A stretch of DNA of 64,000 bases from Hyperoplus lanceolatus (Eukaryota > Chordata > Actinopteri > Uranoscopiformes > Ammodytidae), in assembly GCA_026929865.2 (NCBI GenBank), contig CM049395.1, positions 35,167,501 through 35,231,500 of the forward strand, in the 5' to 3' direction. This document shows, in pieces, positions 1 to 63,957 of the stretch. The position numbers and the translations under genes are program-made. The notes under the pieces are model-generated. The model had not been told where the DNA came from. It ran no database searches and was given only the letters and a program-made list of their open reading frames with translations. Numbering within the stretch: the stretch's first letter is position 1; each line of letters starts with the position of its first letter.

Positions 1-96
1 CGTGCGTGCGTGCGTGCGTGCATGCGTGCGTGCGTGCGTGCGTGTGTGTATGTGTGCGTGCGTGCGTGCATGCATGCATGCGTGTGTGTGTGTGCC
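1..96. repeat. CGTG/TG microsatellite
   Basis: Imperfect tandem CGTG, CATG and TGTG units run from the left edge of the window. Simple repeat, no coding content; the left boundary is cut by the window. Confidence 0.9.
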
Positions 97-3000
97 CCCA
101 TCCTCCAAGCTCATCAGCTGAAACAATGCCCTGCATTGAGGACATGAGATGAACGGTTGAAAGTCCGTTACTTGTGTACGTGTAAGATGCTGTTTGCATG
201 CTAAGCTCCTTAAGGAGACTTTTACACTTTGTTTAATCCTGTTATGTAGACTTTGCACAAGCAAGAGCATAAAAACATGACAGTTATGAATTAAGTCACA
301 TAGTTAAGCACCACTTTATTAAAAAGGACAGATTTCTATAGGAAAACTTAACGTTGTTCTAAAGGTATTTCCAGAAACACTGCAATACAGTATTCCATCC
401 TCTGCATGGTAGAAAAAGATAATGGTTAGGGGTTAGGGAGATCACAGTAATATACATACATGCAAATCCACTCTCTTGGGAACCAAAATGTTAACATGTA
501 TTGTCATTTATCTCTTTAATATTTTCACATATTCATTCATAGAACTATATGCGTTCATAGTTTGTTTTTGTGTGTTATAGACAGACATCAGGAGTCAAAT
601 GTCACAAACCTCTTTTATTGGTTGTGTAAGTGTGCAGTGTGTTACTGTGCGTGTGTGGAGGGACATGAAGGTAAGAGTGCAATAAAAGTTACGTGAGGTG
701 AGGGAACAGATTGTGCTTTATTTCCAGCAGGTGGCGCCACAGTGACAATGACTCAGGCTTTATTCTGTCATACACATTTCTTTCATTTCACTACACTAAC
801 TCAGGCTTTACAGGTATGTTGGAAATAACGATAAGGTTGTCTTAATTTTCCCACATTTGTAGAAGGCGACTGGTCTGCTCTTTTTTTTCTATATACATGT
901 TTATCATTGAACTGTTGTTTGCTTTACAACTGTATTTGATTCACAAAACCGAAATGTCCCATTCGGGGCGACAGAAATCTGGAAAACATTTATTCCTGGG
1001 AACATTGGGATGAACCTACTTATCTAGCCCAACATTAATAACTTTTCATTTTCACATTTTCAACTGCTATATAGTTTTGAATTGAATTGAAAATGTTTTT
1101 ATTTCAAACAAGTAAATAATAAAAAATAAAAAAGCTATAATAAACAATAAAATAAATGAAACAAGTGGACAGTTACAATAAAGTCATATTTACACACAAT
1201 GAAAACCACAAATGAAAATAAACTTTACCTGTTCGAAAAGGGGTGAGAAGAAGAAAACGTATTTAATCATATAGAGTCTATTTGCCAAATGTCCAAAAGC
1301 TGCAAATGGCAGGTGCCATTGATCCCTTTGAGGTCAAACGTTTTCTTGTCAAAGAGAAACAGGATACATTATGCTCAGAGGTTCATTAATGTGTTTTATA
1401 GAATAAGTTATATTTACAGATAGCATTACTCTCTTTTCTTTCTCTCTCACACTCTGCAACTCACACTACATCTCATTAATGCAGCCAAATGGACTCTGTG
1501 ACCCTGACAGCAAACTTGGCTGACTGTCGTCTTTTCTACCACACCAGAGTCAGTCTCAAGTTCTTATTCCCAAAAAAATGTGGGTTCAAGAACTTACTTA
1601 GAACAATTATTTTCGATTTAATAATCTATTGGAATGTAAGATATGTTTAGCGATAAATGTGTTATCTGGTACGTTCACGTGAATCTAACTCAATCATAGA
1701 TTTATAGATTTGAAAAAAAGGGAAACGTCCAATGAATTCAATAGACATTTATTTGATATTCAGAACACATCTCCCATGAAGTAGAAATCGATGCACGTAA
1801 TGGAACAATTGCATGTTTCCTGAGCTGAAAAAAAGTTAATCATTAACAAAATAAACTCAATATAATGACCTTTAATTCTCCATATATCTGAAGCATAAGT
1901 TTGAGTTGTAGGCTGCTAACCGAGAGAAAGTACAGTCAAAGGTTTGCACAGATACAGTCTACAGATAATTTGTCTTCATAAAACTGTAAATCACAGAAAA
2001 TATAAACACTTCAGAATTTAAAATATTTATTTAAGATGTTAAAAGCTCCACTGACATAAATAATGTGTGAAAGACCTGCATCGGCACTTTGAACGGCTCT
2101 TCTCATATTAAACCCAACCCTCTGCATTATGTCTAAATATAATTATGTCCGCTGATGACAGACTCCAGATCTCTGTATACCCAGCCACATTTTTCTCCAT
2201 CGGTCTGTCCTTGTTGAGATTATCATCCATCAAAAGACTGAATAATAATGGAAGAAAACTTTTTTCCTAATTATATGGAATCTGGACTTATTTAGCTGCC
2301 GAAAAGGGAACTTGTAGTGCCACCAGAAGACCCTTAAATTTGCCGAATAAGAAGTTGGGCTGATGAGGTGAGAAGCAGAGAATGCCCTAAAACAAACTAG
2401 CAGAGGGGCTTGGAGCAAAACAGCCAGGGGCTTAAGATATATTAAATTACCATGATTGGGACTTAAGGCATGGTTAAAGCCTGTTTGAGAGGCTGGGGAG
2501 AGCTATTCATGTCTGGGGAGCTGGGTCAATAGGTTGGGGAAGTTCACAGGACCTGATTCCATTCTTATGCAAACGCAGAGTACAAGACCTAATGCTCACT
2601 CGGTTGGAAGATATAAATGACTAGACAATCATCTGAAGCCCTCCGCACACAGACACAAACCTGATCTACAGCTGCCTACTTTCATTCATGAGGCAGAGAG
2701 CGATGTCGTCCGCCGGGTTCACTCCCAACGTCTCACTTCCTACTTCCAAATAGGAATAGTTGTGGTGATGACACACATATTCACACATATGCTTGTAGAT
2801 TTCAGGGGGGGATGCAGGGGATGTGTAATTTCCCCCTCAATATTTAAAAGAGGCACATTTTTCCCCCCCCAAAAATATGAAAGATAACCCAGATAACAGT
2901 TCAGGGGGTCAAAACATTTATATATCCTACTTACCTGCTGTAAATATATATTTCCCAACGGTTTCAGACGCCCCTAAAGTAGGCCGTGACAACTTGACCT

Positions 3001-4616
3001 TGATATTGTCTTTTCCTACACAGAAAAAAAAAATCCACCATAAACTGATACGGAAAATGCATAAATTGGTGCATAAAATGTCATGAAAATGCAAGAAATT
3101 AAGTGTTTGATGCTGAAAATCTTGTGAACGACCCCCAGACTCCCACCTATAATGTGCCCCCCCCCGCCCCAAATATTTAAACCAAACCCTACGCCCTTTT
3201 TTCACACGAAAGTTAGGATAAAGTAAACCCAGCCCTGTCTCGTGTAAAATGTAGCCTACGCTCTGGATTTCCAGTTTGAAGCAGTGTAATGAATGGGAGT
3301 GTCAGGATAACTATTAGTTTATTTATGTATAATAGAGGCACATAAAAGTGTGCTTTGTTCCTCCCTGGCTGCAGCACAGCCTGGCCGGGAGTTTATTTCT
3401 CAGCGTTTGGTGAGTAATGCGACCTCCACTGACTCCAACCCACAATGGACAACATCTATCTCTATGTGCTGACAGGGAGAAAATCTGAGCAGAATTAATG
3501 AATGAATGAATGAATGCACAGTGAGCGCCGTGAGAGAGAGCACCTGCAGCCGGCGGACACAGTTTCATAAGCATTTCTATAGTTTTGGCAGATTTTTCTT
3601 CTTTTTTTTAACATCTGACCGAATATGAAATGAGGAAGAAAGATTCAGTCATTTTTTAATGTTTCGGTAAAAAGCGATCAATCAGGCTTTGACAAACTCA
3701 TTCAAAAAGCCCACAGGCCTCCACTCTTTACTCTCAGCATCCTGCTGCCTGCAGGAATTTGCTCCCGACACTGATGTTGGGTGATGACAACCCGCTTGTT
3801 CCAGTTCATGTTCAAGGAGTTGAGATCTGGACACACATTTTCTTTCTTTTGTGATATGTTAACATGAAAAGTCCACCCTCAACCTTTTCTGGTGAAGTTT
3901 AAAACCCTTTCATTGCACTGTAGAAAGTTTTCCTTTGATTGTAACTAATGAGCACAATATTTTTTTAAACCAAATAAAGCAATAACAGTCTCTGATGTTA
4001 TTGGTTTGGACCTAATATTGCATTAAGACAGGACCATAAAAGAAATGTGTTATATTCTCTGCGTCAAGAATTGTTCCTGTGTTTTTTTTTATGTTGTTCT
4101 GAGAGCAGTTGCATGCATTTACAGTATGTCTTGCTGGTGCCCACATGTCATGACTTTGAATTTGATGACTTCAGGTGTATATCTGAATCTGAGAACCTGT
4201 CAGGCTCTATGTAGTTGGACTGGTGTGTCCTGGCCTTAGAGCAACGGACGGCTGTGGAAAAAGGTTAATCAAGGTTTTGGAAACACAAAGAAAAAAGAGG
4301 AAAACTACCCTCAGTCATGGTCAGAGGATCACACACACTTATCCGTTGGCTTGTGCCGGGTCAAGTGTGTGTGTGTGTCCCAGGAGAGATCAGAGGTCAT
4401 GACTCCCTCTGTCCGTCAGCAGGTCGATGCTCTAACACACAGAGGTCTCCACACTGTGGGAGGAGCTTTTACTAGTTTACTAATCTACTGCAGAGCAACA
4501 CAGACAGGCTGCAGAGAAAGACTGAAGGCACGTTACTGAAGAATAGATATATTTTTCATTCGCTTTTTTAATGTCTATTCTATGCTTGATGTACTTTAAT
4601 CTTGATGTGTTTCATG

Positions 4617-4692
4617 GCCCTGTAAAACACTTTGAATGGCCTTGTGTCTGAGTTGTGCTATATAAATAAACTCTCCTTGCCTGGCCTTGCCT
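4617..4692 (-). repeat. Dispersed fish repeat, TTTATTTATATAGCAC type
   Basis: Read on the minus strand this matches the blocks at 16991 and 55308. The shared order is an AGGCAAGGCAAG-like head, TTTATTTATATAGCAC, then CAAGGCCATTCAAAGTG and a TTTACAGGG-like end. Three copies in one 64-kb window show a dispersed element, probably the tail of a SINE or LINE. The family was not identified. Confidence 0.7.
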
Positions 4693-6254
4693 AGATCAAC
4701 AGTTGGTTTATAGGACCTACCTTATATAGCTTCTAATATGTCAACTTTTTCAAACATGTAAATAATTGTAGGGAAAACATGACTGCCCCATGTTTTTATC
4801 TTGTTAGAAATCATTATGGTTAAATGTGGCACTGTACATTATGGGTTCTGATAACTATGTGTTTAGTTCCACAGGTTGTTGATGGTTGTGTTTTAGTTTT
4901 TTCTTCTTTATTTCTCTCAAATGATGAGTTGACAAACACCTTTCTTTGTGCTGCTTTTCATTTATGTGAGTCGAGGCATTTCCAGCGTTTCTTTTTCCCC
5001 CTGTACACCTATTCACTGTTTTTTTTGTCTGTCTTTCTGAGTTATAGACATGAATCAATGTTGTGAATATGTCCTTCAAAATAAATAAAAACTTGCTTTC
5101 CACCACCATAGTCTAGTTTTAGGAAAATGTAGCCCCCATATCAGACATTTCAAAAGCTCTACAATGCACTAAAATACACCACTATACTACTGACTACAGG
5201 AGATGCCTCTGTCCAAGGTGCTGACAGAGAGCAGCCTTTCAAATCTACAGCTCCAAATAAAAACATACTCGTCGTCATGTTACTTTAACATTCATTTTAT
5301 TGAGTAAAAAGCAAAACATTTAATCAGCTCACATTGATGAACTTCATTTTCTACCGAGGCGAAAACTCAACACAAGTTCAAAGATCGCGTTTCACTCCAA
5401 AAACATCCACATTTGAACACACTTTTCAGAAATGATTCTCAAAAATCTCCATGTTTTCCAAAATAAATAACATTTAATGACAGTATATCTGAAAGAAAAA
5501 AACTGCTGTATTTATGCAATTGTACATGGCAGAATGTTAAAGCTGTTGTTGGTGATATCTGAAGTTGGTGTAAGACAGCCTGAAGACATCCTCCGTGAGG
5601 CACAGGTTCCTTTCATTGCTGCATGCAGACTGTTAACGTCACAAATCGGCCTGTGAATCCATGATGATGTAATGAAACAAGTCACGCAGATCCCCCACAC
5701 AGCAGAGTAGCATCTGCACCATCAACGTCCTAAAAAAGACAACAACAAAAAACACATCAGAAATCAAAATCAGCTTTGTAACATTTACATCTTCAGGTAT
5801 CGACAACTGCTCAGCAACTCTGAATAGTTACACTTGTCTTTTAACAGATTGCATCATCTCCGTGTTTTGTAACTAAATTAAGGCGGGATTTTTGATGTGA
5901 GATCAGGCTGAGTTGGGCCGTGTAGCCATACCGCTGCCAGATTCACCAAATTATACATAAAGAGGTTCCTTGGACATTTTAATCCCACTGGGAGACATGG
6001 TAAGACCTTTTCTTTCCCAATTTTCACGCTCTCTCTTATTCAAACCTCTTCTCTTTCCCCCTGCAGCTCCACAATGCAGGATCATGCTTTCTTTTTTCTT
6101 TTCTTTTTTTTTCATGTTCTCTCATATCTTTTCTGGGTATGACCGCCTCCCCCCCGCCAAACCCCTCAGACAGCATGCAGTTTATGCAAATGATCCACCT
6201 TTCATGCTCAAAGTTGAATGAGACCTCAACAAGCAGATCCCTCTCGCTCATTTT

Positions 6255-6256
<2 letters not shown>

Positions 6257-6327
<71 letters not shown>
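6257..6327. repeat. (CA)n microsatellite
   Basis: About 35 nearly uninterrupted CA units. A second, shorter CA tract follows at 6546-6580. Apparent reading frames here are poly-Thr/His or poly-Cys/Val artefacts. Confidence 0.95.
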
Positions 6328-6340
<13 letters not shown>

Positions 6341-6543
6341 GTCATGTTCCCATCACTTCAGAGTACATAACATAGACTTATACATTCCCTGGAGTTATAC
6401 CCCTACCATGACCACTTCTACGTAACCCCAACTCTACCCGAAGCTTAAAGCAATTCTCAACCCAAAGATGTATTAAGGCCTGTAAAAGGATGGCGAGGCC
6501 CTATACCGTGTTTAAACAGATTTATGTCCTCACAAAATGAGTA

Positions 6544-6581
<38 letters not shown>

Positions 6582-8293
6582 TACTCAGTTAAAAAATGGA
6601 TTTGCCATTATTTTCACTTTAGTTTTTCTGTTATAATTTGAAATACTTTACTTAATTTACACTACATAGATAGGAGTAATGAAGAAGTGTGCGTGTGTTA
6701 GTGTGTATGTGTGTGTCTGTCTCTCTATGTCTGTGGTTGATGGTAAGTAGACCATACATGCATGGATGGACATAAAAGTTAGGAGTTGTTTGGAGAGGCG
6801 TGCATGCAGTTTGTGTGTATGTGTGTGTGTGGATAATGATGAATGTGAAATTGTCGGTGTTCCCAGGGTCTGGGTGGTGTGCGGGTGAAAGGCCTTAGGA
6901 GGGGGGCAGTTGTAGGAGGGGGAGGAGGAGGGGGGTTGCATGTGCCCAGCTGTTGGGGGGAACCTGAGTCTCTCTCTCTCTCTCTTGACAGGCTGTCCTT
7001 TTCACCAGTGCATTGCCGGGCCGACCAGCCTGCTGCCATAACAACGCCACAGCCCCTCTCTGTCATAGTACCGCCATGCAGTAACCACAGAGCAGGGGAG
7101 GGGGGGGGGGAGACAGACGTGAATGAAGAGTCCAGACGTTTCTACCCCTGTGAACTTGAACTTGACTGACAGTCTGAGCCACTGGCGGGACAGAATGGAA
7201 ATGTGATTCTGTCCTGTGATTGAGTTCCCAACATACTTTCACATGTCACTGATGTTGAAGATTTGCTGAGTGAATCGTGAATGAACAAATGTTTATATTA
7301 AGACTAGGGTATATTAATTCTATTAGTTATTTTTAAATATGTTCATACATATAAATAGGCTACCACCACTTCTAGGTCTAATCGTGGTGTTATAATGTAA
7401 TAATAATTGTATGTGACTAAGGTATATAGAATCATTGTTTTTGTTTTTATTATTATATTATCACATATCTAATAGTATGTAATCTAGCGGCATATATTTT
7501 TTAGAAACATAAAAATTATAACAAATGTTACCTCTTCTTACAAAAAAACATTATCTTTTGATTTAACTTGTGAATAAATCCCATATTGTGTAAAATGATC
7601 AGACCAGGATATTTTGAGTAAGAAATTGCAGCTCAATATAACATTTATTAACTAACTTCCTTTTTAACTAACTTTCTTCCTTGTTTATCTCCATGTCACA
7701 CGCTCATTCGCTCCAGTCTAAAGTCCCATCAGGGGTCCTATAGCTGCTCAGACCCACTGGACCATGGGGTGTTCGGGGTGTAAAAAGACAGAGCTGTGAA
7801 AGGTCTCCTGTCGCTGCTACAAAGCCAAATACAAGCCGTAGCAGGATAATCTCATGTCCTCCTAGATTAAGACAGAATCACAGCTGTGGTGTGTGTGTCC
7901 TTGTTGGGGGGAACGGGGGTCCTGCCTTCAGGAGAGCACACAGTGCTTCCTAATCTACACAAGGTTCTGGTTCTGTGATTGAGAGCCGACAGGTTATAAT
8001 TCCTCTGGGCTTTACTGTAACACTGTTAGTTTCGTATCCTGTGTCTCGATGCTTTGTTTGTGTTAAATAATATTTACAGGTTGTTTTATTTTATGTCCTT
8101 TGACATTAATGTCTCCACACACATCCTGGTCAGCCCACTAGAATTTGTGTCTTTCGTTTGTTCAGATTTGGCAAAGGCCTTTGGAACTCGACTGAGTTCC
8201 CGCCTATAATATGAATCAAGTGGATACACGTTGGATACAATGGCGGCAGTCTTTTTTCATTAACATTAGTTCTGGCATGAGACCACACACTCC

Positions 8294-8398
<105 letters not shown>

Positions 8399-9014
8399 CC
8401 TCGCAGACATAAAGAGGCAGCCAGACAAAGGGGCCAACTTTGTCCAGGAGACACTCCTATGGCTGCGGTGCTAATGCCGGCATCTGCCACTGTCTGGTCT
8501 GATGCGCCGTTCCCACCTCCCAGCCCAGCCCAGGGTTTACTGCAGTGTACACAATGTTGGGAAAGGGAAGAAGTGGCAGACCTTTGTGGATGGGGCTCCT
8601 TTCACAAAGCAGCCATTGTGGAGCGCGAGCGAGCCAGGCTCAGAATGATAATGTGGACCACTGTTTACTAACAGGGTCTCCCACAGCTGCACAGAGGGGC
8701 TGCACTGTGTCTGGGCATCACGGAGAAAACAACATGCGTACAGGTGCATCATATATCACCTGCAGGCCACTGTGGGTTTGTACCATGCCTTCTGTTATTA
8801 CCACAATGTGCTGGGTTTCCTAAAGAAAAGTGCATTTCTTAATTTATGTAAAAATGTATTTAAATGTAAGCAACTCCAATGTTATTTATCCTTTTATAAT
8901 TTTAACTATCAGACACTCCTGCCTTCCAGAAGTTGCATTTTGTATTTTAAGCAACTCCAAGTGAAAATCTCTTCTGCTGGTTTATAATTTCACTACCTTT
9001 ATATTAAACTTGAG

Positions 9015-9015
<1 letters not shown>

Positions 9016-9096
<81 letters not shown>
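9016..9096. repeat. (CA)n microsatellite
   Basis: About 40 uninterrupted CA units ending in a short A-run. Confidence 0.95.
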
Positions 9097-9099
<3 letters not shown>

Positions 9100-9559
9100 A
9101 ATCAATAAACAAGCTACTAAGGCAGAAATGTTTAAATCCCCGAATAAAGGATTTTTTTTGTTAAACATATGGCTGATTTACAGACGTGCTCTGTGTTGGC
9201 CGGCCATACAGTATTTCACTGCATGAGCTCATCTTATCACCAGCCTCACACCTGCCCCTCCCCCCAGCTGCTTGTCTAATTACAGCCTTGGCTTCTAATA
9301 AAGGAACAGTTCCCCTTTTATTTTTCAAGCCCTAGAAGCTGACTGTTCAAACCACATGTGTTCGTGATCAGTTAGATTTTACATTAAACGTTTTTTTTTT
9401 TTGTGAACAATTAATACATTTATAATAAATGATATTTTCCACCAGAATATGAATCCTGGCAATTTGGAGACGGATTGTTTTTATTTTGATTATTTGTCTT
9501 TATATTTAGAAAATAAAGAAAAAAAATTCAAATCAATTATTCTGATCATTGTTGGTCTT

Positions 9560-9615
9560 AATCAAAATATCCAGTGCAGGTGAGGTCCTCCTCACCTACA
9601 CTGGATATTTTGATT
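9560..9615. repeat. Near-perfect 26-bp inverted repeat (hairpin)
   Basis: Left arm 9560-9585 and right arm 9590-9615 are reverse complements with one mismatch, separated by the 4-base loop TCCT. The arms contain ATCAAAATATCCAGTG. The hairpin is much shorter than a normal pre-miRNA stem plus loop, so a cruciform-forming palindrome or a collapsed inverted-repeat element is more likely than an RNA gene. Confidence 0.85.
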
Positions 9616-12600
9616 GAGTGGCAGGCTATCTCTGAAACCCATGCTTGACACCCATGGATAGGATTATATTATGTGCATTTTTTTGTTATGGGCATTACAA
9701 CTTTATCCCTTGCTTTAGGCCTGTAGCCATTTAGGTTTCATTTAGTATAAAAATTATGAACTTCACCTTTATAAAGATATTTAATGCTGCTCGAAAAACT
9801 GTCCACATGCTCCGACCATAAATAAAATAAATAAAATATTGATGCAGTGTTGTTCTGCATATTACGGTGCTGCTGTGCCTTTAAATACTCTCTGTGCTCC
9901 CCTCGTTTCTATGCAATTATGTAAATATGCGGAGCTCGTCTGGCTGCTATTCATTATCGGCTGGGATTGCGGGATTGTTTCCTTTATTTTCCATCTCTAA
10001 AGCCAATCTTGGGCTTTTTCTTTTCTTTTTACACCAAAGGAGACCTACGGCGAGCGAGAAGACATTAAGGTTTGCAGTTCGTTTTCCGTGTGTGTGAGGT
10101 TCACTCTTTGCGGATTTAAAATAGCGATATGTAGGCCTAGAAGGAGAGGCCGAATATCTCAAGCATTTGTCTGCAGAACGAACAACCCAGGTGTTCTCTT
10201 AATTTTCTGTTATTTATCAAAAAGGCGCTGAACTGTAAATACACCTGTCGGAAGAACCTCGATCCCAACCTGCGCACTTGTAATGTAACAGAGAGGGTCA
10301 TCCATATTTCAAGAAGGAGGAAGATGTAGGCTATTTAATGAGCATGGTTTGCAATTTATTAAAACTGAGGAACTACTGCAATATTGAGAAGTTTCATTTT
10401 TCTTTATGATAAATATTTACAGTTTACCCCCACTGTGTAGCTTTTTAGAAAATGTGTCTCTTTTTTGTGTCTGACTTCGATCTTGTCTATAATCCATATT
10501 TATATATAAATGATCCTAAACACAATAACTTCCTTTCATGACTATGCTTCTCATATTGTCCTTTCATTATTAATTATTATTAAAATATATTTTTTTTGTA
10601 TCACGTTTTGATTGTTCATTTGACATGTTGCTATATAATAACACATGAAAATGATCAATAATAATTAACACATAGCTTGTAACACAGGCTGATGGACTAT
10701 GGGCCTTTTGTTTTTGGCCTTAAATTAAAGAGGTGAAAAAGCTTGACACAAGGGCCTCACCTATAAGGCCTGATAATGCTTCAAATTTTGCAGAATAATA
10801 TGCTTTATTTTCCAAATATGTATGCATGAAAATATGATTTGAACAATATTTTTGGGCTATTCAATTGAAAGTTTATGTTTCTTTCTAAATGAGCCATAGA
10901 CAATAGGCTTTTACAAAAAGAAAATCTGAAAGGATAAAAGTGTCATTGAAAATTGTACTCACATTTTTTAACTGCCTGGTTTTTCTTTTCCATTACCGAA
11001 ATTCATGATCATTTTGATTTAAATCTCATTTAATTTTTATGTGATGGGAGTTTAGAATATAGGATGCATATATGGTCACATTGGATCTGACACAGAAATG
11101 CAGAATTTGTCATTTTATCTGTCATGCTTTCTATAAAACTGGTAGACAACAATAACTTGAACTTGACAAATATGAGTCAGAACTTTATTTTTTACGGTAC
11201 TTTATATATAAATATATTTTTAAAAAGGGTCTTATATCTAATACAAAGGTTACTTGCACTACAACGTATTGTCTCTGTGAACCTGACTCACTGGGCCTGA
11301 TTATTTCCCCCCTCGTGGCATTAGCAGATTCTCAGATGGGCACAGGAATGTCCCCTAATGTAATCAAGTGTCATGATTTACACTGGCTCATTGATTGACC
11401 TTTAAACAGCCTCGGTGTGTGTGTGACCTCGCTGATTGGCTAGAGAGGAGATGTGTTATTAAGACAGGAAAGGTTTGAAGACGGACTGATTGAGCTGTGA
11501 GATCTGTGCAGCTAACGATGCTCCAATTAAAGCGGGCCGTGCTGTGGTGCCAATACAACCATTTTAGAGGCGGCGGGGAGACTCCTTCAAGATGGCCTCC
11601 ACCACATACAGTACACAAGACGAGGCTGTGGCAAGGGAAGGGGGCTGAGCTGTATACTACACAGCCCAGCATGTGTGTCTTAAGGCCTCTCTCTCTTTGA
11701 GAATTAAGATCTCACAGATTTTGTCTTTTCTATGCATTTCCAACACCTGCTGTAACACTGTTGGATGTACTATGTTGTATTCTGTGTCTGTGCATCATAT
11801 AGTGTCTGCAATTTTGAAATAAAATGGTGTATTTTATTGGATTTAGACTTAGACTTATTGTTAAGATGCAGGCTGGAGTTACATTCTTAGTCAGTGAAAT
11901 CTAACGTGGATCTGAGCAACTATATGAACACATTATTATAGTGCACATATGGAGCCAGTGCCACATTATATAAAGGCAGTGGCACGTCTGATTGAAACAA
12001 TTATTGAAAGATTTTACAACATTTAAAACATTTCACAGAAGTGAGGTTGATTCAAGTTTGACTCATTTAAAAGCAATAAGAACAGTGAGCATTGAATTAA
12101 CTTGGTTTGGTAAATAACTGTAATTGTTTCAGTTTGTTCAACAGAGACTTTAGTGAGCTCCAGAGGATGTACTGGTATGCAAAGATCTTATTTTTTTATA
12201 AATGATTCGGAGGTCCATTTGACACAAACATCCTGCTGACATCTGAAATTTCACAGAAAGAAAAACTGTCAGAATGTCAAGAAATCTTTCTAAGAGGGGT
12301 TATTAAACATGGCATATGTCACATGTGATAATTATTGGTATTTGAAAGGCTTTACCAGAGGAGAGAAAAATGCCCCCCAAAAATCCTGACAGTCAGATAT
12401 ACAGAGATACACAGTTTACTTTAACAGGAGATTAAGGGGGGAAAAGCAAATCTTCACAAACTAGAAGCTGGAACTGGGAAAATATTGGTATTTCTTTGAT
12501 GAATCAATGTTCAAAGTTGCCGATTGTCCGTGGACTTTCATCAACTAATCCACTAACTGTTGCATCTGTAGCCTAATTGTGGCGATAAGAACAAATTCTT

Positions 12601-12729
12601 CATATTCTTTCTGATCATTTCTTTTTTTAAACCTACCGGAAAAGTATTCAGGTCCTCTCGTCTCGTCTGTTGTTCTCTTTTGGTTATCTTCTTCAAAGCA
12701 AGAAGCGGAGGGGTTCGGAGGCCATTCCT

Positions 12730-12751
12730 ACTTTCGGTTATCTAGCTTTAT
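12730..12751 (-). ncRNA. Mature miR-9-3p (miR-9*)
   Basis: 22-nt opposite arm on the minus strand beginning ATAAAGCTAG. It is intact and pairs with the 5' arm to leave a typical short 3' overhang. Confidence 0.92.
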
Positions 12752-12768
12752 GATGGAGGGTTTAACAC

Positions 12769-12791
12769 TCATACAGCTAGATAACCAAAGA
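12769..12791 (-). ncRNA. Mature miR-9-5p
   Basis: 23-nt guide arm on the minus strand. The seed region CTTTGG (positions 2-7) is intact, and no difference from the vertebrate consensus is seen. Confidence 0.93.
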
Positions 12792-14097
12792 CAGGAACAC
12801 ACTCCACTGTTTGCAACAAAAAGGTCTGAAGTCTGAAGCGCCCTGTGAACATGAGGAAAACAATTGTGGAGTTAATGCATGATCCTACAATTAAAATGCC
12901 TTCACTGTTGATTTAGATGATAAAAATTAAATATCTGAACTTTAAAATAACATTGACAAAACCAAACACATTTCTGAAGTGTTTCAATCAAATAGAAATA
13001 CTCTATGTGGACCGATTACAATTAATTCAATTACCATAAGAAGCATTTAGCCTACTCTTATTGCACTCCACATTGCATCTTTAAAATGTGAAGTATACAG
13101 AAATATAATGAGGTCTCTGTGCTGCCTCCCTCTTTTGATACAGAATTTCACATATTTGCCAAATAATTCTCTCCCCTTCTTTAACATTTAATAAGCTGCA
13201 TGTGAAAGTTTTTGCTTATAAAACTTTGTTCATATAATCTTTTGGATGTGGACTCGGTCAGGGGGCATGAAGGCCTCAGTGCTTATGTTTTGTAATTCAC
13301 TAAATATGACGTTTTTCATCTTCTGTCTTTGCTACTATACTTTACTGCATAGCTATTATTGACATCTCTTGACCATTGCTACGCATATGTGTAATTCCTT
13401 CTTCAAAATACATGTTTTATAGTTGAAAAAAGACAATCATTAAAAAAAATACAATTATTTATGATTTATTATCATGCATACCTTAACTCATAATAACCTC
13501 ATGATGAACTCATGCTTTACTTTGCTATTGCGTCAGACGTCAGTTGTTTTAATTGGGGGGAAAAGATGCACTGACATGGCATGCATCACTTTCTTTGTAT
13601 AACTCACGCACACTACTACAATTATCACGGCCTTTTTATATATAAATGAACTGATGCGAACTGCAGCAGACCACATGAGTGAAGCTCATAGTAATAGGTG
13701 TGAAGTTGCCTTGACTGAAGGGTTGGAGAGGGACAGCCCTGTGAACTCTCTTCATGCTTACAAACGAGCACATGTTGTCTTGAGATTATAAATTATTTTA
13801 TTTGCGAATTTAATGCGATTTTTTTTTAATGGGAATTTTCTAATTGTAATGGAGGGTGTAAACTAGACATTACAGCCCCACATTATCTATTGGCTGTGAC
13901 TTAGACAATGAACCCTTATTTGTAACCTTCTTGACTATTATAACATGGTTTCATGAATGTCTAGCCTACTACACCTTGTTCCTAAAAATCTGTGACATGA
14001 CACCAGTGCACCTGCAGCTGCTGAGAATACATAGCCTCAAAACTGCCTGTGTGCAGGCTACGACATGACAAAGATTGCATTTAAAAAAAAGACTCAC

Positions 14098-14530
14098 TTT
14101 CACTTTGCACCAGACGCCTCCCGCATCCATGGAGACTGTAGCATCCACATGTGTCGTCGGTGGCAGGGCCGTCGGTAGCATCTCTCGGGCTCCAGATGTG
14201 CAGAGTTCCCGCGTGATTTTGGTATTTGACGAACAGGTGAGCGTGTATGGATGGGATCGATAAAATCCCACGCCCGCTTGCCCGGGGCTGGGCGTCCACT
14301 GCGGGCTGTGGATGAGGTAGTATCCTCCCTGAACTGTGTTGTTTGTATCCGGGATCAGGGAGTTTATAGTTAGGCTATTTTTCTCCAGAGATGAAGTGTG
14401 ATGCTGCTGGTGATGGCCTAAAACACGGCGTGGTGTCTTGCCCCAGTCCGAGCAGCTAGTGAGGCTGCGCTGCGCTCCCCTCAATGATCTCCTCTCACCT
14501 CCTCTCTGCCTCTTCTTTTTCCCCAAACGC
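14098..14530 (-). ncRNA. Possible first exon of the mir-9 host transcript
   Basis: This GC-richer block lies 1.3-1.8 kb upstream of the mir-9 hairpin on the same strand, just below the promoter-like block at 14.53-14.60 kb. Read on the minus strand it ends at a good donor, AAA followed by GTGAGTC (boundary at 14098). It contains an open frame of 185 codons (13969-14526) with basic, low-complexity composition that I do not recognise. The frame runs through the donor, so I do not call it a protein gene. A host-RNA exon, as known for mammalian mir-9-3, fits strand, position and splice signal, but this is inference. Confidence 0.4.
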
Positions 14531-14600
14531 CTCCCCCTCCTCCCCCCACGGATAAGCTGACGTCACAGCGACGGCAAGTGGCTGGTGACCAATGGCATAC
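14531..14600 (-). promoter_or_regulatory. Candidate promoter with CRE and CCAAT box
   Basis: A perfect palindromic cAMP response element, TGACGTCA, is at 14558-14565, and a CCAAT motif is at 14589-14593. The flanking C-rich tract (14521-14550) and GC content contrast with the surrounding AT-rich DNA. No TATA box is clear. A promoter firing leftward would transcribe the mir-9 hairpin. Confidence 0.5.
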
Positions 14601-15266
14601 GGCCCCCTCGTGCGTGTTTTTTAGGAGGGTGGCACACACATAGAAATTGTGCTAGTGTGATCATTAGACTCAAAGAAGCTCACACTGTTCTGGAGCATTT
14701 CTTTAACATTATGGACAAATCAACAGTGCAGCATGTTACAGCATGGTATTACTCATGCCATTACATTGTGTTGGTTTATTTCAAATTTGTTTTGAATATG
14801 AGATTCTGAGACTTTTATCATCAATATACTGATGAAGTAAGTGACATAAGAACTATGTCTAATAACCTGGAGCCTGTGTTGTTTTACCAATTAAAAATAA
14901 AAAGTCACTTATTCCCAAATTCCGAACTACCCCTTTAAAGCAGCCACAAAGAACATCCAGTTTTTGTTTATTCTAGCGCCCCCCCTGGACAAAAGTGTTA
15001 GTGTTTTTACGTCACCAGCGCCTTCTGTCATAAAGATCTTTGCAAGTGCGTGCCGGCGGTGCATGCAGTTTAGTTAAATGTATACGTGACTATATAATAT
15101 TAATAATGTTTATTTGACAATGGTGTAAATGAAGTTCAATGAAGTAAACTTTGATTTATTTATGTTTGGGAAACACAGGATGTTTCGGTCCGCCTGCCGT
15201 ACATCGTTTTGACTGATTTTGCAGGGAATCGTACTGGAGAAAAAAGTGTTAATGATAACTTTAAAC

Positions 15267-16273
15267 TAGTGCTGTCAGTTTAACGCGTTATTAACGGCAT
15301 TAACGAAAACCCATTTTAACGGTGTCAATCTTTTTATTGCGTGATTAACGCTCGTCATGGCTTCACATGCTGTTGTATGAAACACTGAAACACCACAAAA
15401 TATACATAGCCTATGGCTCGCAGTTAAGTTACTGTCAATTCAAACGGAACATGTCCTACAGCGTAATTTCACATTAAAATCATTTAACTGGCATAACGGC
15501 GAAACGTTAAGTCAATTCTGACTTTTATTTTGAAGCAGAAACCGGAACCTAGCACTTCCTAGCTCAGCTGCGCGACCTTCACTAGTAGAGTCTTCCGTGT
15601 TGTGACTGTGGGACTACACGGAAAAGAACAGAAAAGAAAGCCTGTCATTTGCAAAAGTCTTACTTATAACCCTGCGCGCACACCAAAACCTCCATGAATG
15701 TTAGTGGCAGCCGCCAGTCATTCATTTTCACTTTAATTTTCGCTACGAAGGGCGACTGCCTCAGCTGCAGCAGCGCCATGCCAACCTCCGGCACGCAGGC
15801 ATAGTGTGTCCACTCCACACAGTCTGATATAAGCCGTGGATGAAATACTCCCAAAACATTTAGGCCTACAACAAGCAGTTTAATTGAGCTTTAATACTAT
15901 TTTGTTTTATATAGCCTATGTTGTTTTATGGTTTGGTTTTTAAATAAAAAAAGTATGCTTGTGAATGCTGTTCTAGGGGTGGGGGGGAGGGAGGGGGGTT
16001 ATTGTTATTTGCACTGAATTGCAAATTATGATATATTAGAAGAAATACACAGAATTACACCATTGTAATTCAGTGTATTTCTTCTAAAATATCATATATT
16101 AGAATGGGTGTGATAAGAGCATTAAAATGAGAAAAAATAATGGGACAAAAAGAAATCAAGGGACATTCAGGCTAGAATAAATACAAATGTGATTAATCGC
16201 GATTAATCGCGAGTTAACTATGACATTAATGCGATTAATCGCGATTAAATATTTTAATCGTTTGACAGCACTA
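15267..16273. mobile_element. Non-autonomous hAT transposon (family A, copy 1)
   Basis: The ends are TAGTGCTGTCAGTTTAACG on the left and CGTTTGACAGCACTA on the right, with inverted TAGTGCTGTCA termini. The element is flanked by a perfect 8-bp duplication, CTTTAAAC (15259-15266 and 16274-16281), the hallmark of hAT transposition. It carries internal ATTAATCGCGATTAATCGC repeats near the right end and a long hairpin around 16025-16105. At 1007 bp it has no transposase. A sister copy with nested insertions is at 39929-42765. Confidence 0.93.
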
Positions 16274-16439
16274 CTTTAAACAAATAGCATTCTTACCGCT
16301 AATGGTCTCAGCTTCTGTAACAGGTCATTGATGACCATCAGAGGAAACATTTGACTGTTTCATACACATTTAATAAGTCCAAGTAGGGTTACAGCCACTT
16401 CTACAGAATTTAAAATGTCTGACTTCAGCACCCCCCAGT

Positions 16440-16820
16440 GGGAGCAGAACAAACACAGAGACATCAATGGGTGACTCCATTACCCATACTTCCATATTTC
16501 TTTAAGGATGTCCCAATATGTCAAATGCAGTACGGAGAAAATGCAGTATGCAGAACATTTTCAACTACATCCATTTGCATTTCACAGTGTGCAAACCAGC
16601 ATGCGTTATGGCTGTTCTGTTCAACAATCCACTGTGCAGAGAAAATGATGTCTCATCGACTGATCCTCCACCAGCCATGTGACCACTGTAATGGATAAGC
16701 AAGAGGGTCAAAGTTCAAGGCCCAAAGTTATGACATAGTAGAATGTCCCAAATGTAGCATACTGCATGCAAAGTACATACTTTTTAAGGTGCAGCTGTAG
16801 TATGAAGTATAGTAAAAAGG
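16440..16820. repeat. Diverged repeat shared with 28130-28410
   Basis: Short blocks occur in the same order in both places: GGATGTCCCAAT, then AATCCACTG, an ATCGACTGA-like block, an ACCAGC...ATGTGAC block and GTTATGACA. Both are old copies of one dispersed element. No terminal repeats or coding sequence could be defined. The rest of 16274-18460 shows nothing I can assign. Confidence 0.5.
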
Positions 16821-16990
16821 AAAAATTTGAAATGCAGAATCCAGAAGAACTCAATTTATAGGCTACAAGAATATTATTATATTTACCTACAATGTATTCT
16901 CCTTTTGTTTGTTTGTATGATAATGTTCCTGTCTATGTGGTGCCCACGGGCTTAATTCAATGAATGTATTGCTTATTCTTGTTTTTTTTT

Positions 16991-17110
16991 AAGGCAAGGC
17001 AAGTTTATTTATATAGCACAATTCAAACACAAGGCCATTCAAAGTGCTTTACAGGGGCAAGATTAAAACACATTAGAAGACATTTAAAAGCAGAAGACAT
17101 TTTAAAGAAA
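16991..17110 (+). repeat. Dispersed fish repeat, TTTATTTATATAGCAC type
   Basis: Plus-strand copy of the element at 4617 and 55308, starting AAGGCAAGGCAAGTTTATTT and running through CATTCAAAGTGCTTTACAGG. An A-rich tail follows. Confidence 0.7.
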
Positions 17111-18469
17111 AACATTTGAAAAAATATCCTAGTTTAAGCCCAGAGAGACAAAACATTTTTTTTTGCTGGATCTTCATGCTATGAGTTCACCAGATATATT
17201 ACAGACTGGTGTGTAAAGACTGAGGCTACAGCGCCCTCTGCTGCCTGGATGGTGTCCACACTCCCATCTCACACATCTGATTTACTCTGTACTCTTGGGA
17301 GAAATATACTGTTCTGTCATTACTGCTGTGTCTTCCACTTGTGTTTTTCAGGACGGAGATGTTGAGCTCCTATACATTGAATAAAGAACCAGGATAATTT
17401 GCATAATAAGGCAGATGGAGAAACAACTTGGAATACATCAATTAAGGCTCAAATTAGATGTTAAATGTGCTGAACTAACAACTAGATTTACTTTTTTTAA
17501 GCAGGGTACTGATACATATTTAGATAAAATCATGATCATTGGATCAATTTGACACTGAAGGAAACATAAAAACTTGATAATATTCAATAAAGTTCTGTGG
17601 TTGTTTCTATGATTTCAAAGCAAAGAAAAAACGGACATAGGTGACAGTGACTGTATCTTCTGGAAGTGCAAGAAACTGAACCTTAAAATGTTTGTATCCT
17701 GAGTGTGTGTTCAGATTTGACTGAGCTATGGATCTGATAAAGGGCAGCTTCCCAGTGTGAGAACTTACTGTTAAAGAGTTCAGAAAATAATTCATTTGTT
17801 GTGCTATACGGCATTGTCTCACTATGTGTAAGACTAAAACTAGTTTTAAGTACAATGTTTCTCAGGGTATATTTTTTTAAGATGGTGGCTTATTTTTGGA
17901 TAAATAGACTTATATGTTCCAGGTAATTTGTTTGATCATCTGCATGGGTAGAAAGATTAAAACACCAACAGTGTAAGCTGCTTAGCATTTCCTTTTATCT
18001 TCCCGTGAATGTTGATCAGATCTCCAGCTGCGGACTCGTAGAAAGCAGTCCTGTCCTGCTGATCACAGCTGAACTTCAGCCCACACTACGCCTACACCAA
18101 TCTGCATTCTCACAGCAGCTTTCATGCCTCATTTAAACCAACTGTGATAACATCCAACCTCACAATCGACTTAAAATGGGATTACAGACCAAATGGCAAA
18201 AATCATTCTCCCCATTTTTGTGTTTAAGATTTGTTTAAAACATTTTCCGAAATGACAGCTTCCAACTTGAATAGAAACAAAAAGACATTGTCTGAAATGC
18301 AAAAAACATTTTAATATAAAATACTGTAGAAGGTAACAATAGGACATGATTAGACAGCAAGAGGATCTCATGTTATAAAGGACTTAAAAGACTTTCATGG
18401 TTGGTAAGACCAAATACTGTATGAAGTTGAAACATCAACTTTACCTTAGTGAAAGTGCTTCATGTAGAA

Positions 18470-18620
18470 ATCAGTGGATGTCCTCATTTATTAAAAAGAA
18501 AACTTTATACAAAAGTACAAAAAACTAACGCTGTATGAAAGACATAATATTTCAGTAACCACAGAACAAAAATCTATGAATATGGTCTTAAAGTAACACA
18601 CAACAACAGTATGTATATTT
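18470..18620 (-). promoter_or_regulatory. kif7: kif7 3' UTR and polyadenylation signal
   Basis: The kif7 stop codon is at 18621-18623. The first AATAAA on the minus strand downstream of it lies at 18487-18492, giving a 3' UTR of roughly 150 nt if cleavage occurs about 15-20 nt beyond. No competing signal was seen closer to the stop. Confidence 0.55.
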
Positions 18621-31044
<12,424 letters not shown>

Positions 31045-31091
31045 CTCACTGCTGTGTGTCTCTGTGCTATGTCTGGATCATCTTAGAGCCA
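31045..31091 (-). promoter_or_regulatory. kif7: kif7 5' UTR part of the first coding exon
   Basis: On the minus strand CCCTTGCAG precedes 31091, a good 3' splice site 47 nt before the start codon at 31042-31044. The ATG-containing exon is therefore preceded by at least one non-coding exon, and 31091 is not the transcript start. I chose this ATG because the next residues run straight into the motor domain and no in-frame ATG is needed further upstream. Confidence 0.7.
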
Positions 31092-35406: not shown

Positions 35407-37115
35407 CTTTTAGCACTCATTAACATGAGGGCCGAGAGAATTATCAACTTGCATAACCCACACAGGTTTTACTGCCTGTCAAAGCTCAACTCCCTGAGGA
35501 AAAAGCAGCACAATAGTTTTTACTTTTGTGGAAGATTTGGCTCCATAGAAATACTGCAACATCATTAAACAGGATTACCCTATCTGAAAGGTAAAGTTAA
35601 ACACGTTTGCTAATTAGTTTCTGTTGCACAATTTTGTGAGTTGCAAAGTTTTGTAATGTATGTTGACTTTTAAACATCTCACACTCATTACAACATTTTA
35701 ATGACTGAAAACAATTGTATTTGAGCGATTTGCACTGACACACAGCTTTTATGATAAGAAACTATAACCAAGATAACTTTGCAAAATTGAGTGCTTTTAT
35801 GTAACAGACAGATTCGTCCTAATGTATGAATTCATGCAATATTCTCCATTTTACAGGCAAGATGAATTTGGAGGAGTACTTCAAGAGAATTGGTTTCCAC
35901 AGTGCTTTTGATAAACCAGATCTGGCAACACTGAAGATGATCCACAAACAGCACGTCATGTCAGTTCCATTTGAAAACCTCAGCATTCACTGTGGTGAGA
36001 GGAACAGCCTGGACCTTGAGATAATTTTTGATAAGATAGTGAGGAAAAACCGTGGGGGTTGGTGTATGGAGAACAACTACCTGTTTGGTTGGGTGATCAG
36101 AGAAATGGGCTATGACGCTACGACCTTGGGCTCCAGAGTTTTCAACAGTCTTCTGAATAATTTCTACCCCGAGGAGAGTCATCTCATTCACAAGGTCGTC
36201 ATCGAAGGAAAGGCTTATATAGCAGATGTGAGCTTTGGAATGTCTTCCCAATTGTGGGAGCCAATGGAGCTCATCTCTGGAAAGGACCAACCTCAGGCGG
36301 CGGGTGTCTTTCGTCTCATAGACGAGGGGAACCTTTGGGTGTTGGAGAAGACTGGTAGAAAGTTCCAGGTTCTCAATCCAGACTTTGCCCAATCAAGCCT
36401 GGTGAACAAGAAGGAAAAAGGTACTATCTATGGCTTTACCCTCACGCCTCGTGAGGTAGATCATTTCTCTGAGCAGAGCCACTTTCTCCAGACAGACCCA
36501 AATGCATTGTTCATGAAGAAGTCCATCTGCTCTCTGCAAACCCCAACAGGGTTCAGAGCCCTCATAGGCTGGACCTACAGCGAGGTCACCTACAAGCCTG
36601 AGGAAGGCATCAATGTTTTAGACATGAGGGACATAACAGACGATGAGATAGAGAAAATTCTGATGGAAAAGTTCAACGTGAAGCTGCAGAGCAAACTGCG
36701 GCCTATAAATGAAAAAGCAATATTCACAATGTGAAAGTAAAAAATAAACAGTACTTAGGATATGTTATGCCATGTGCATATTGGCATGTTTGCAACGTAC
36801 GAGTTGAGCAAGTGTAGCAACAGCTCATCATAGTAAATATTGTTTCCTCAAACTAAGTACATTTCAATTATACACCTGCTGGTTGTGAAATCATGTTCAA
36901 AATCACTCTTCATTTCCCAAATATCATGCATTCATGTGTTATAAACTATAAATAAAATTATACTTATGACTGTCCTTACTCAATGAATAAATGAATATTT
37001 GTATATAATGTATCTAATCAACCAAATGTCTAACAAACGTAACCGTCATTGTCAGTGTAAAGTGCATTTAAGAGTACATACTACATGAATTAATAAATAC
37101 ATTTAAACTGTATAA
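35407..37115 (+). repeat. NAT segmental duplication, unit A
   Basis: Sequence from CTTTTAGCACTCATTAAC through the NAT coding exon and about 380 bp of 3' flank is repeated at 39670-44205 (unit B, interrupted by an insertion). The intron part is about 98% identical by eye. The 3' flank is clearly more diverged. A possible extra non-coding exon in the unit ends CTGAAAG before GTAAAG at 35590 (39853 in unit B). Confidence 0.9.
35862..36734 (+). CDS. Arylamine N-acetyltransferase, copy A
   Basis: 290-residue NAT, the normal length of the family, in one coding exon that starts at the acceptor TTTTACAG (exon from 35857). It transfers acetyl from acetyl-CoA to arylamines and hydrazines in the cytosol by a ping-pong mechanism. 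The catalytic triad is complete: Cys68 in NRGGWC, His107 in ESHLIHKV and Asp122 in YIADVS. Other family blocks are VPFENLSIHCG (36-46), ELISGKDQPQ and SICSLQTPTGF. Positions 125, 127 and 129, which line the acceptor pocket in human NAT1/NAT2, are Phe, Met and Ser. I chose the ATG giving MNLEEYF, which aligns with human MDIEAYF. An upstream ATG in the intron (35826) is excluded by the acceptor. Orthology to one mammalian NAT gene cannot be assigned, so no symbol is given. AATAAA follows shortly after the stop. Confidence 0.96.
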   Translation: MNLEEYFKRIGFHSAFDKPDLATLKMIHKQHVMSVPFENLSIHCGERNSLDLEIIFDKIVRKNRGGWCMENNYLFGWVIREMGYDATTLGSRVFNSLLNNFYPEESHLIHKVVIEGKAYIADVSFGMSSQLWEPMELISGKDQPQAAGVFRLIDEGNLWVLEKTGRKFQVLNPDFAQSSLVNKKEKGTIYGFTLTPREVDHFSEQSHFLQTDPNALFMKKSICSLQTPTGFRALIGWTYSEVTYKPEEGINVLDMRDITDDEIEKILMEKFNVKLQSKLRPINEKAIFTM

Positions 37116-38155: not shown

Positions 38156-38733
38156 TCAATACGTTGTGGAACCACCTATCGCTGCAATTACAGCTCCAAG
38201 TCTATTTGGGTATGTCTCTACCAGCTTTGGGACTGAAATTTTTGCCCGTTCATCTTTGCAAAATAGCTCGAGCTTTAGATTCAGAGTCAGATTGGGTGCA
38301 GAGCGTCTGTGAACAGCAATTTTCAAGTCTTTCCAGAGATTCTCAATTGGATTTAGGTCTGGACTTTGACTGGGCCATTCTAAGACATGACTATGCTTTG
38401 ATCTAAACCATTCCATTGCAGATCTGGCTGTATGTTTAGGGTAGTTGTCCTCATTGAAGGTGAACTTCCACCCCAGTCTCAAGTATTTTGCAGACTCTTA
38501 ACAGGTTTTTCTGCCCTGTATTTGGCTCCATCCATCTTCCCATTAAGTCTGACCAGCTTCCCCGTCCCTGCTGAAGAACAGGACCCACACCACATGATGC
38601 TGCCACCACCATGTTTCATGGTAGGGATGGTGTTTTCAGGGTGATGTGCAATGTGAGTTTTCCGCCACACATTGCATTTTGCATTTAGGCCAAAAACTTC
38701 AAGTTTGATCTTATCTGCATATGCTGCGCCCAC
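38156..38733 (-). pseudogene. Tc1 transposase C-terminal fragment, left arm
   Basis: Two minus-strand frames (38479-38733 and 38156-38482) together cover the part of a Tc1 transposase from the KIE-(V/L)-F-G-(L/H)-NAKC block to near the C-terminus, including DLNPIENLWKDL. They are joined only through a frameshift near 38480, and the N-terminal half is absent. Non-functional remnant. Confidence 0.85.
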
Positions 38734-42499: not shown

Positions 42500-42969
42500 T
42501 TTATTGTTATTTGCACTGAATTGCAAATTATGATATTTTAGAAGAAATACACAGAATTACACCATTGTAATTCAGTGTATTTCTTCTAAAATATCATATA
42601 TTAGAATGGGTGTGATAACAGCATTAAAATGAGAAAAAAACATGGGACAAAAAGAAATCAAGGGACATTCAGGATAGAATAAATTAAAATGCGATTACTC
42701 GCGATTAATTGCGAGTTAACTATGACATTAATGCGATTAAATATTTTAATCGTTTGACAGCACTAGTATGTTGACTTTTAAACATCTCACACTCCTTATG
42801 ACATTTTAATGACTGAAAACAATTGTATTTGAGCGATTTGCACTGACACACAGCTTTTATGATAAGAAACTGTAACCAAGATAACTTTACAAAATTGAGT
42901 GCTTTTATGTAACAGACAGATTCGTCCTAATGTATGAATTCATGCAATATTCTGCATTTTACAGGCAAG

Positions 42970-43842
42970 ATGAATTTGGAGGAGTACTTCAAGAGAATTG
43001 GTTTCCACGGTGCTTTTGATAAACCAGATCTGGCAACACTGAAGATGATCCACAAACAGCACGTCATGTCAGTTCCATTTGAAAACCTCAGCATTCACTG
43101 TGGTGAGAGGAACAGCCTGGACCTTGAGATAATTTTTGATAAGATAGTGAGGAAAAACCGTGGGGGTTGGTGTATGGAGAACAACTACCTGTTTGGCTGG
43201 GTGATCAGAGCAATGGGCTATGACGCTATGACCTTGGGCTCCAGAGTTTTCAACAGTCTTCTCAATGATTTCCGCCCTGCTGAGACCCATCTAATCCACA
43301 AGGTCGTCATTGATGGAAAGGCTTATATAGCAGATGTGAGCTACGGGGTGTCTTCCCAATTGTGGGAGCCAGTGGAGCTCATCTCTGGAAAGGACCAACC
43401 TCAGGCGGCGGGTGTCTTTCGTCTCATAGACGAGGGGAACCTCTGGGTGTTGGAGAAGACTGGTAGAAAGCAGCAAATTCTCAATCCAGACTTTGCCCAA
43501 TCAAGCCTGGTGAACAAGAAGGAAAGAAACGCCATATTTTGTTTTACCCTTGCGCCTCGTGAAGTAGATCATTTCTCTGAGCAGAGCCACTTTCTCCAGA
43601 CAGACCCAACTTCATTGTTCATGAAGAAGTCCATCTGCTCTCTGCAAACCCCAACAGGGTTCAGAGCCCTCATAGGCTGGACCTACAGCGAGGTCACCTA
43701 CAAGCCTGAGGAAGGCATCAATGTTTTAGACATGAGGGACATAACAGACGATGAGATAGAGAAAATTCTGATGGAAAAGTTCAACGTGAAGCTGCAGAGC
43801 AAACTGCGGCCTATAAATGAAAAAGCAAGCTACGCAATGTGA
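42970..43842 (+). CDS. Arylamine N-acetyltransferase, copy B
   Basis: 290-residue tandem paralogue of copy A with the same exon structure (acceptor ends at 42964, exon from 42965). The catalytic triad Cys68, His107 and Asp122 is intact and no stop or frameshift is seen. About two dozen residues differ from copy A, grouped at 81-134, 168-195 and the last four residues, while long stretches are identical. At the acceptor-pocket positions it has Tyr125, Val127 and Ser129 instead of Phe125, Met127 and Ser129. It lacks a duplicated copy of the TATA-linked first exon, so it must be transcribed from inside its own unit or spliced from the upstream exon at 33.7 kb. An AATAAA follows the stop at about 43849. 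Confidence 0.95.
   Translation: MNLEEYFKRIGFHGAFDKPDLATLKMIHKQHVMSVPFENLSIHCGERNSLDLEIIFDKIVRKNRGGWCMENNYLFGWVIRAMGYDAMTLGSRVFNSLLNDFRPAETHLIHKVVIDGKAYIADVSYGVSSQLWEPVELISGKDQPQAAGVFRLIDEGNLWVLEKTGRKQQILNPDFAQSSLVNKKERNAIFCFTLAPREVDHFSEQSHFLQTDPTSLFMKKSICSLQTPTGFRALIGWTYSEVTYKPEEGINVLDMRDITDDEIEKILMEKFNVKLQSKLRPINEKASYAM

Positions 43843-50360: not shown

Positions 50361-63957
<13,597 letters not shown>

Follow-up and report, generated by a model that had tools for sequence, protein, structure and literature searches.

A mir-9-3 gene between Rh and kif7 genes in Hyperoplus lanceolatus, and a likely target for a zebrafish central nervous system enhancer

The window analysed here is a stretch of 64 kb from the genome of Hyperoplus lanceolatus (C1:35167501-35231500, in an assembly of 806.7 Mb and 527 contigs, cited below as C1 and so on). 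On its minus strand, positions 12722-12800 give a full-length match to the Rfam mir-9 family (RF00237) that scores 75.1 bits (E 6.3e-13), above the gathering threshold of 58.6 bits. This is the only gathering-level Rfam match across the window; a permissive scan added only matches below threshold, among them the hairpin's own antisense strand (56.6 bits), and ARAGORN predicted no tRNAs there. The kif7 gene lies to the right on the same strand, where it spans 18621-31077 when measured from the stop codon up to the end of the first motor frame, and the exons of an Rh/ammonium-transporter gene lie left of the window on the plus strand (C1:35152267-35154969), 25-28 kb from the hairpin. Other features were also seen in and near the window. 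Two very similar arylamine N-acetyltransferase genes of one open frame each (PF00797) are found on the plus strand at 35823-36731 and 42931-43839, separated by a transposase fragment (DDE_3) at 38159-38497 on the minus strand. A pyruvate kinase exon (PF00224) is located at 62691-62963 on the minus strand, with more exons, recognised by eye, leftwards to about 50 kb. Left of the window, C1:35162227-35164547 is a repeat with frames that by eye appear reverse-transcriptase-like, 90-95% identical to stretches of C6.

The original prediction, made from the sequence alone, had placed a complete miR-9 gene at 12724-12798 in a protein-free region, with base-perfect arms and flanks that extend the stem. 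The gene is real, and these details have held. Both the 5p arm (12791-12769, 23 nt) and the 3p arm (12751-12730, 22 nt) are identical on the minus strand to the mature letters of miR-9-5p and miR-9-3p, and the Rfam alignment is consistent with miR-9 letters along both. Small-RNA reads had been predicted to start at 12791, which in the sequence is the first base of the 5p arm. The 17-nt stretch between the arms (12752-12768, minus strand) is unlike that of all five paralogues in the locus comparison. The 121-nt minus-strand RNA of 12700-12820, whose folding had been proposed as a check, forms a single stable hairpin of -42.1 kcal/mol with the mature arms inside the stem; 200 shuffles gave a mean of -23.2 kcal/mol (sd 3.1; z -6.0), and none was equally stable. 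When the six mir-9 loci of the genome were aligned, 5 of the 33 predicted pairs had at least one sequence changed on both sides with pairing kept, all five in the lower stem beyond the mature arms. The description of the region as protein-free is fair, in that the single frame of the Rh-kif7 interval given to Pfam (13972-14562) had no match. Open frames of 60-73 amino acids overlap the hairpin.

A hairpin of this kind could in principle be a decayed, non-expressed mir-9 copy that was retained by chance. We regard this as extremely improbable, as both arms are unchanged and lower-stem pairing has survived two-sided changes among the paralogues, while most of the interval shared with the related locus on C6, described below, no longer aligns. 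The strand of the gene also deserves comment. The plus strand folds equally well (-43.4 kcal/mol) and its 56.6 bits fall just below the threshold, so that strand assignment is based on sequence alone and the primary product might be an antisense mir-9. The antisense strand passes the Rfam threshold at four of the five other mir-9 loci in the genome, which marks this as a trait of the near-palindromic mir-9 stem and means that Rfam strand calls for this family demand care. In the window, however, the minus strand scores 18.5 bits better and bears the canonical arms, and we give transcription from the plus strand hardly any credence.

Six mir-9 loci are present in this genome, on C19, C3, C6, C12, C1 (the window) and C9, each above the Rfam threshold on at least one strand; genome-wide Rfam scoring covered 64 out of 119,780 first-look candidates. 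A search for the last 22 nt of the 5p arm with up to two mismatches returned seven places, namely the six loci, all exact, and one place on C3 with two mismatches, and a reversed control pattern had no match in the genome. The seventh place (C3:28473867) was rejected as a mir-9 copy, having neither a mir-9 hairpin fold nor a gathering-level Rfam match. A two-arm mir-9 pattern found no matches in viral contigs. The 3p arm is exact on C19, C3, C6 and C1; on C12 and C9, AGAGAACC replaces AGATAACC in the 3p arm while the 5p arm is unchanged, and C9 has one further change. The longest match of C12 is to C9 (103 nt at 85%), and this is the longest among the 15 pairwise matches between loci. In size, number of mir-9 genes and vertebrate-type neighbouring genes, the genome is in keeping with a teleost fish. 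Zebrafish is described as having seven mir-9 genes (PMC9641661), and a review states that eutherians have lost a class named miR-9-4 or miR-9b (PMC3834235). In our reading, the copy on C3 belongs to mir-9-2, that on C19 to mir-9-1 and that on C9 to mir-9-4, with C12 as its probable twin by virtue of the same 3p variant and the longest pairwise match, and the copies on C1 and C6 belong to mir-9-3.

The neighbouring genes support this placement of the window copy. All four kif7 motor frames tested matched Pfam Kinesin. One of them, compared with the PDB, had human KIF7 as its best match (E 3e-58), with the first row not named KIF7 at 1.1e-35; KIF27, the nearest paralogue of KIF7, was not named among the best 60 of the 156 rows. 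One exon frame of the Rh gene beside the window had RhCG as its best PDB match (E 1.7e-31), followed by RhAG (5.3e-22), with no RhBG among the best five rows. Since neither KIF27 nor RhBG appears among these listed matches, the choices of kif7 over kif27 and of rhcg over rhbg were decided by gene order. The hairpin lies between the two genes, and both converge on it. The last kif7 frame read ends in a stop codon at 18621-18623, 5.8 kb from the hairpin, in agreement with the distance of 6 kb first given. Human gene order differs, with KIF7 beyond RHCG. In zebrafish, rhcga and kif7 are described as converging across 90 kb of non-coding DNA on chromosome 7 (PMC4593583), and the human MIR9-3 locus is said in another report to include POLG, FANCI, RHCG and TICRR (PMC5760859). 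The zebrafish-like convergence of rhcg and kif7 on the hairpin makes assignment to mir-9-3, which the original prediction had proposed on the strength of kif7, well supported.

It might still be argued that the hairpin is a real mir-9 gene of another class (mir-9-1, mir-9-2 or mir-9-4), as all six loci have the same 5p 22-mer and the arms are common to several classes, so that the mature letters are unable to decide between them. The surroundings, however, differ. All 15 Tmem161 matches in the genome fall on C3 (58 kb from its hairpin) and C9 (20 kb from its hairpin), and MEF2-type exons are found about 41 kb from the hairpins on C3, C9 and C19, whereas the window copy lies beside the Rh gene and kif7 and C1 has its only MEF2-type match 26 Mb from the hairpin. 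The other MEF2-type exons are on C6, 5 Mb from the hairpin, and on C7, about 170 kb from another Rh gene; judged by the human residues, the C3 exon is like MEF2C and those on C19 and C7 are like MEF2D. The mir-9-4 (miR-9b) class has its 5p arm in common with the window copy, but C9 and C12, which we file there, carry the AGAGAACC variant in the 3p arm, C9 has Tmem161 and a MEF2 exon as neighbours, and C12, with the same kind of variant, has its longest match to C9. We therefore consider membership of another class very unlikely and conclude with high confidence that the window copy is an intact mir-9-3 gene, in a fish of teleost type. It shares with vertebrate mir-9-3 the hairpin, both mature arms and an Rh-type neighbour, and has kif7 placed as in the zebrafish rhcga-kif7 arrangement; it differs in its own loop and flank, and in being one of two probable co-orthologues. 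As a gene it is ordinary, as would be expected within a microRNA family of such deep conservation.

The MEF2D-like exon and the Rh gene on C7 (C7:33401658 to 33576526, 170 kb apart) merit a separate remark. A second mir-9-1 site could be expected between them, and a search with the 5p 22-mer at up to two mismatches found no mir-9 on C7. It is possible that this interval represents a lost mir-9-1 duplicate.

The second mir-9-3-type copy, on C6, makes the window copy one of two probable co-orthologues. An Rh gene lies 23-26 kb from the C6 hairpin, and on both C1 and C6 the Rh gene points toward the hairpin. When the window-side Rh gene was compared with those on C6, C7, C14 and C20, using seven frames judged to be in-frame and keeping one piece per pair, the C6 gene had the top identity in all seven exon frames (e.g. 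86% versus 70%, 69% and 46%). It had the top bit score in five of the seven and was the sole match in one; scores were higher elsewhere for C7 (78.2 versus 73.6 bits for C6) and for C20 (107 bits, from a longer piece, versus 95.1). The presence on both C1 and C6 of a distant MEF2-type exon was also counted toward the pairing. Together with four collinear non-coding elements downstream of the two hairpins, the Rh identity suggests, from sequence comparison, that the C6 copy is probably the twin of the window mir-9-3 gene from the teleost duplication.

These elements were found, at E <= 0.01, when window positions 1-12700 were compared with the corresponding side of the C6 hairpin (C6:14740691-14763000). 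From the hairpin outwards they are 8471-8535 (C6:14744001-14744069; 72% over 69 columns, E 1.2e-4); 6986-7045, the weakest of the four (C6:14746813-14746873; 72% over 61 columns, E 8.5e-4); 5977-6082 (C6:14747910-14748012; 69% over 106 columns, E 1.6e-8); and 2433-2617 (C6:14752508-14752712; 63% over 211 columns, E 1.6e-5). All four are in one orientation and keep their order. Their distances from the hairpin are 4.2, 5.7, 6.6 and 10.1 kb in the window and 3.3, 6.1, 7.2 and 11.8 kb on C6. A first-order Markov model of the C6 stretch, resampled 60 times, gave one hit in total, and eight control stretches of real DNA gave two, both in one stretch, with none in the other seven; one of the two came from a repeat found elsewhere and the other was an 87-nt hit with E 7.7e-4. 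Lone weak matches are thus no proof, and single matches as weak as 6986-7045 can arise by chance, yet chance does not readily explain four matches in collinear order. A genome search with window positions 2150-2720 found only the region itself, which indicates that it is not a repeat; that search was not sensitive enough to pick up the C6 counterpart. Upstream of the hairpins, comparison of window 12811-18600 with C6:14720001-14740570 gave no match.

Several other matches were left outside the element set. C1:35164570-35164621 matched C6 (E 1.3e-4) out of order; the remainder were a match near the end of the Rh gene (E 0.001), C1:35161446-35161568 against a C19 sequence near MEF2 (E 2e-9), two weak matches to C9 (E 1.3e-4 and 0.002), and some matches between repeats. 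Window 16586-16839 matches C9:12098302-12098550 (E 8e-16, with 63% identity over 256 columns) in an orientation opposite to that of the hairpins; it may be a repeat or an old shared element, and was likewise left out.

From the known biology of mir-9, the gene would be expected to work as follows. A Pol II primary transcript carrying the hairpin would run leftwards on the minus strand from a promoter upstream of 12800, driven by central nervous system enhancers in the non-coding rhcg-kif7 interval, several of which may lie 4-10 kb downstream (2.4-8.5 kb in the window). Drosha and Dicer would release miR-9-5p and miR-9-3p, and these would repress targets such as her/Hes genes and so time neurogenesis. 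CpG-rich segments upstream of the hairpin at 14001-14400 and 15501-15800 may be the promoter; 8 of the 11 segments that passed as CpG-rich are elsewhere. An 11-mer complementary to miR-9-5p, AGATAACCAAA, occurs on the minus strand at 12679-12689, 33 nt past the hairpin, and was considered as a self-regulatory site. It is expected 0.05 times per 64 kb, and none of the random 300-nt segments of the window (about 3975 by our reckoning) attained its score of 22. However, it was picked post hoc, the flanks of the other five loci (10 in all) score at most 17, and an uninterrupted seed site is missing, so we leave it as a probable chance occurrence.

Human MIR9-3 sits in LINC00925. One report describes the human lncRNA that contains MIR9-3 as a POLG regulator with three central nervous system enhancers (PMC5760859). 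While the human locus holds POLG, polymerase-A-family exons in this genome were seen only on C5 and C23, in seven matches with none on C1. As these matches are at family level and polg itself may have been missed, they hint only weakly that polg does not adjoin mir-9 in this genome.

The element at 2433-2617 is of particular interest, as it is the probable counterpart of a zebrafish enhancer. The pTME12 enhancer-trap line, inserted in the rhcga-kif7 interval, is described as showing GFP from 16 hpf in the telencephalon, by 48 hpf in the brain and spinal cord, and from 72 hpf in the retina, a pattern which according to its authors matches neither kif7 nor rhcga and for which their discussion gives no target (PMC4593583). 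CNE2, one of four elements conserved across zebrafish, fugu and medaka, gave central nervous system expression in 58 of 650 injected embryos, as stated there (PMC4593583). The main text of that paper contains no mention of microRNAs or mir-9, and no paper among those searched names both mir-9 and rhcga. The window element has the rhcga-kif7 position in common with CNE2 and pTME12, and the CNE2 reverse primer matches 23 of 26 positions at 2595-2620, where the element ends. This match scores 20, against a best of 17 for 400 shuffled primers and at most 14 in six other stretches, eight primers having been tried. The CNE2 forward primer, in contrast, has no convincing match in the window, none better than chance; sequence like the reverse primer was not seen in the C6 copy of the element, and the primers for CNE1, CNE3 and CNE4 had no convincing match (CNE1 reverse scored 14, and the best of its 30 shuffles 13).

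The expression of mir-9 in zebrafish is also relevant. Start sites of zebrafish pri-mir-9 transcripts, mir-9-1 excepted, are reported as detected at 16 hpf, and mature miR-9 as appearing first in the telencephalon (PMC4838339), and pri-mir-9-3 is listed among the early hindbrain pri-mir-9s (PMC9641661). With this timing and these sites, the pTME12 pattern fits mir-9. By analogy with the window, zebrafish mir-9-3 would lie within the rhcga-kif7 interval of chromosome 7, and the likely target of CNE2 is mir-9-3. Comparable long-range regulation was proposed earlier for human mir-9-3 (PMC3123655). We lean towards the view that CNE2 is a long-range mir-9-3 enhancer which belongs to a small collinear set and has stayed some 10-12 kb downstream of the two mir-9-3 copies ever since the genome of teleosts was duplicated.

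The link between CNE2 and mir-9-3 is a modest new inference, and the presence of the gene alone changes nothing. The window and its probable duplicate nevertheless give a published central nervous system enhancer that had no target a likely one, and provide a short list of elements worth testing for the early mir-9-3 expression observed in the zebrafish hindbrain.
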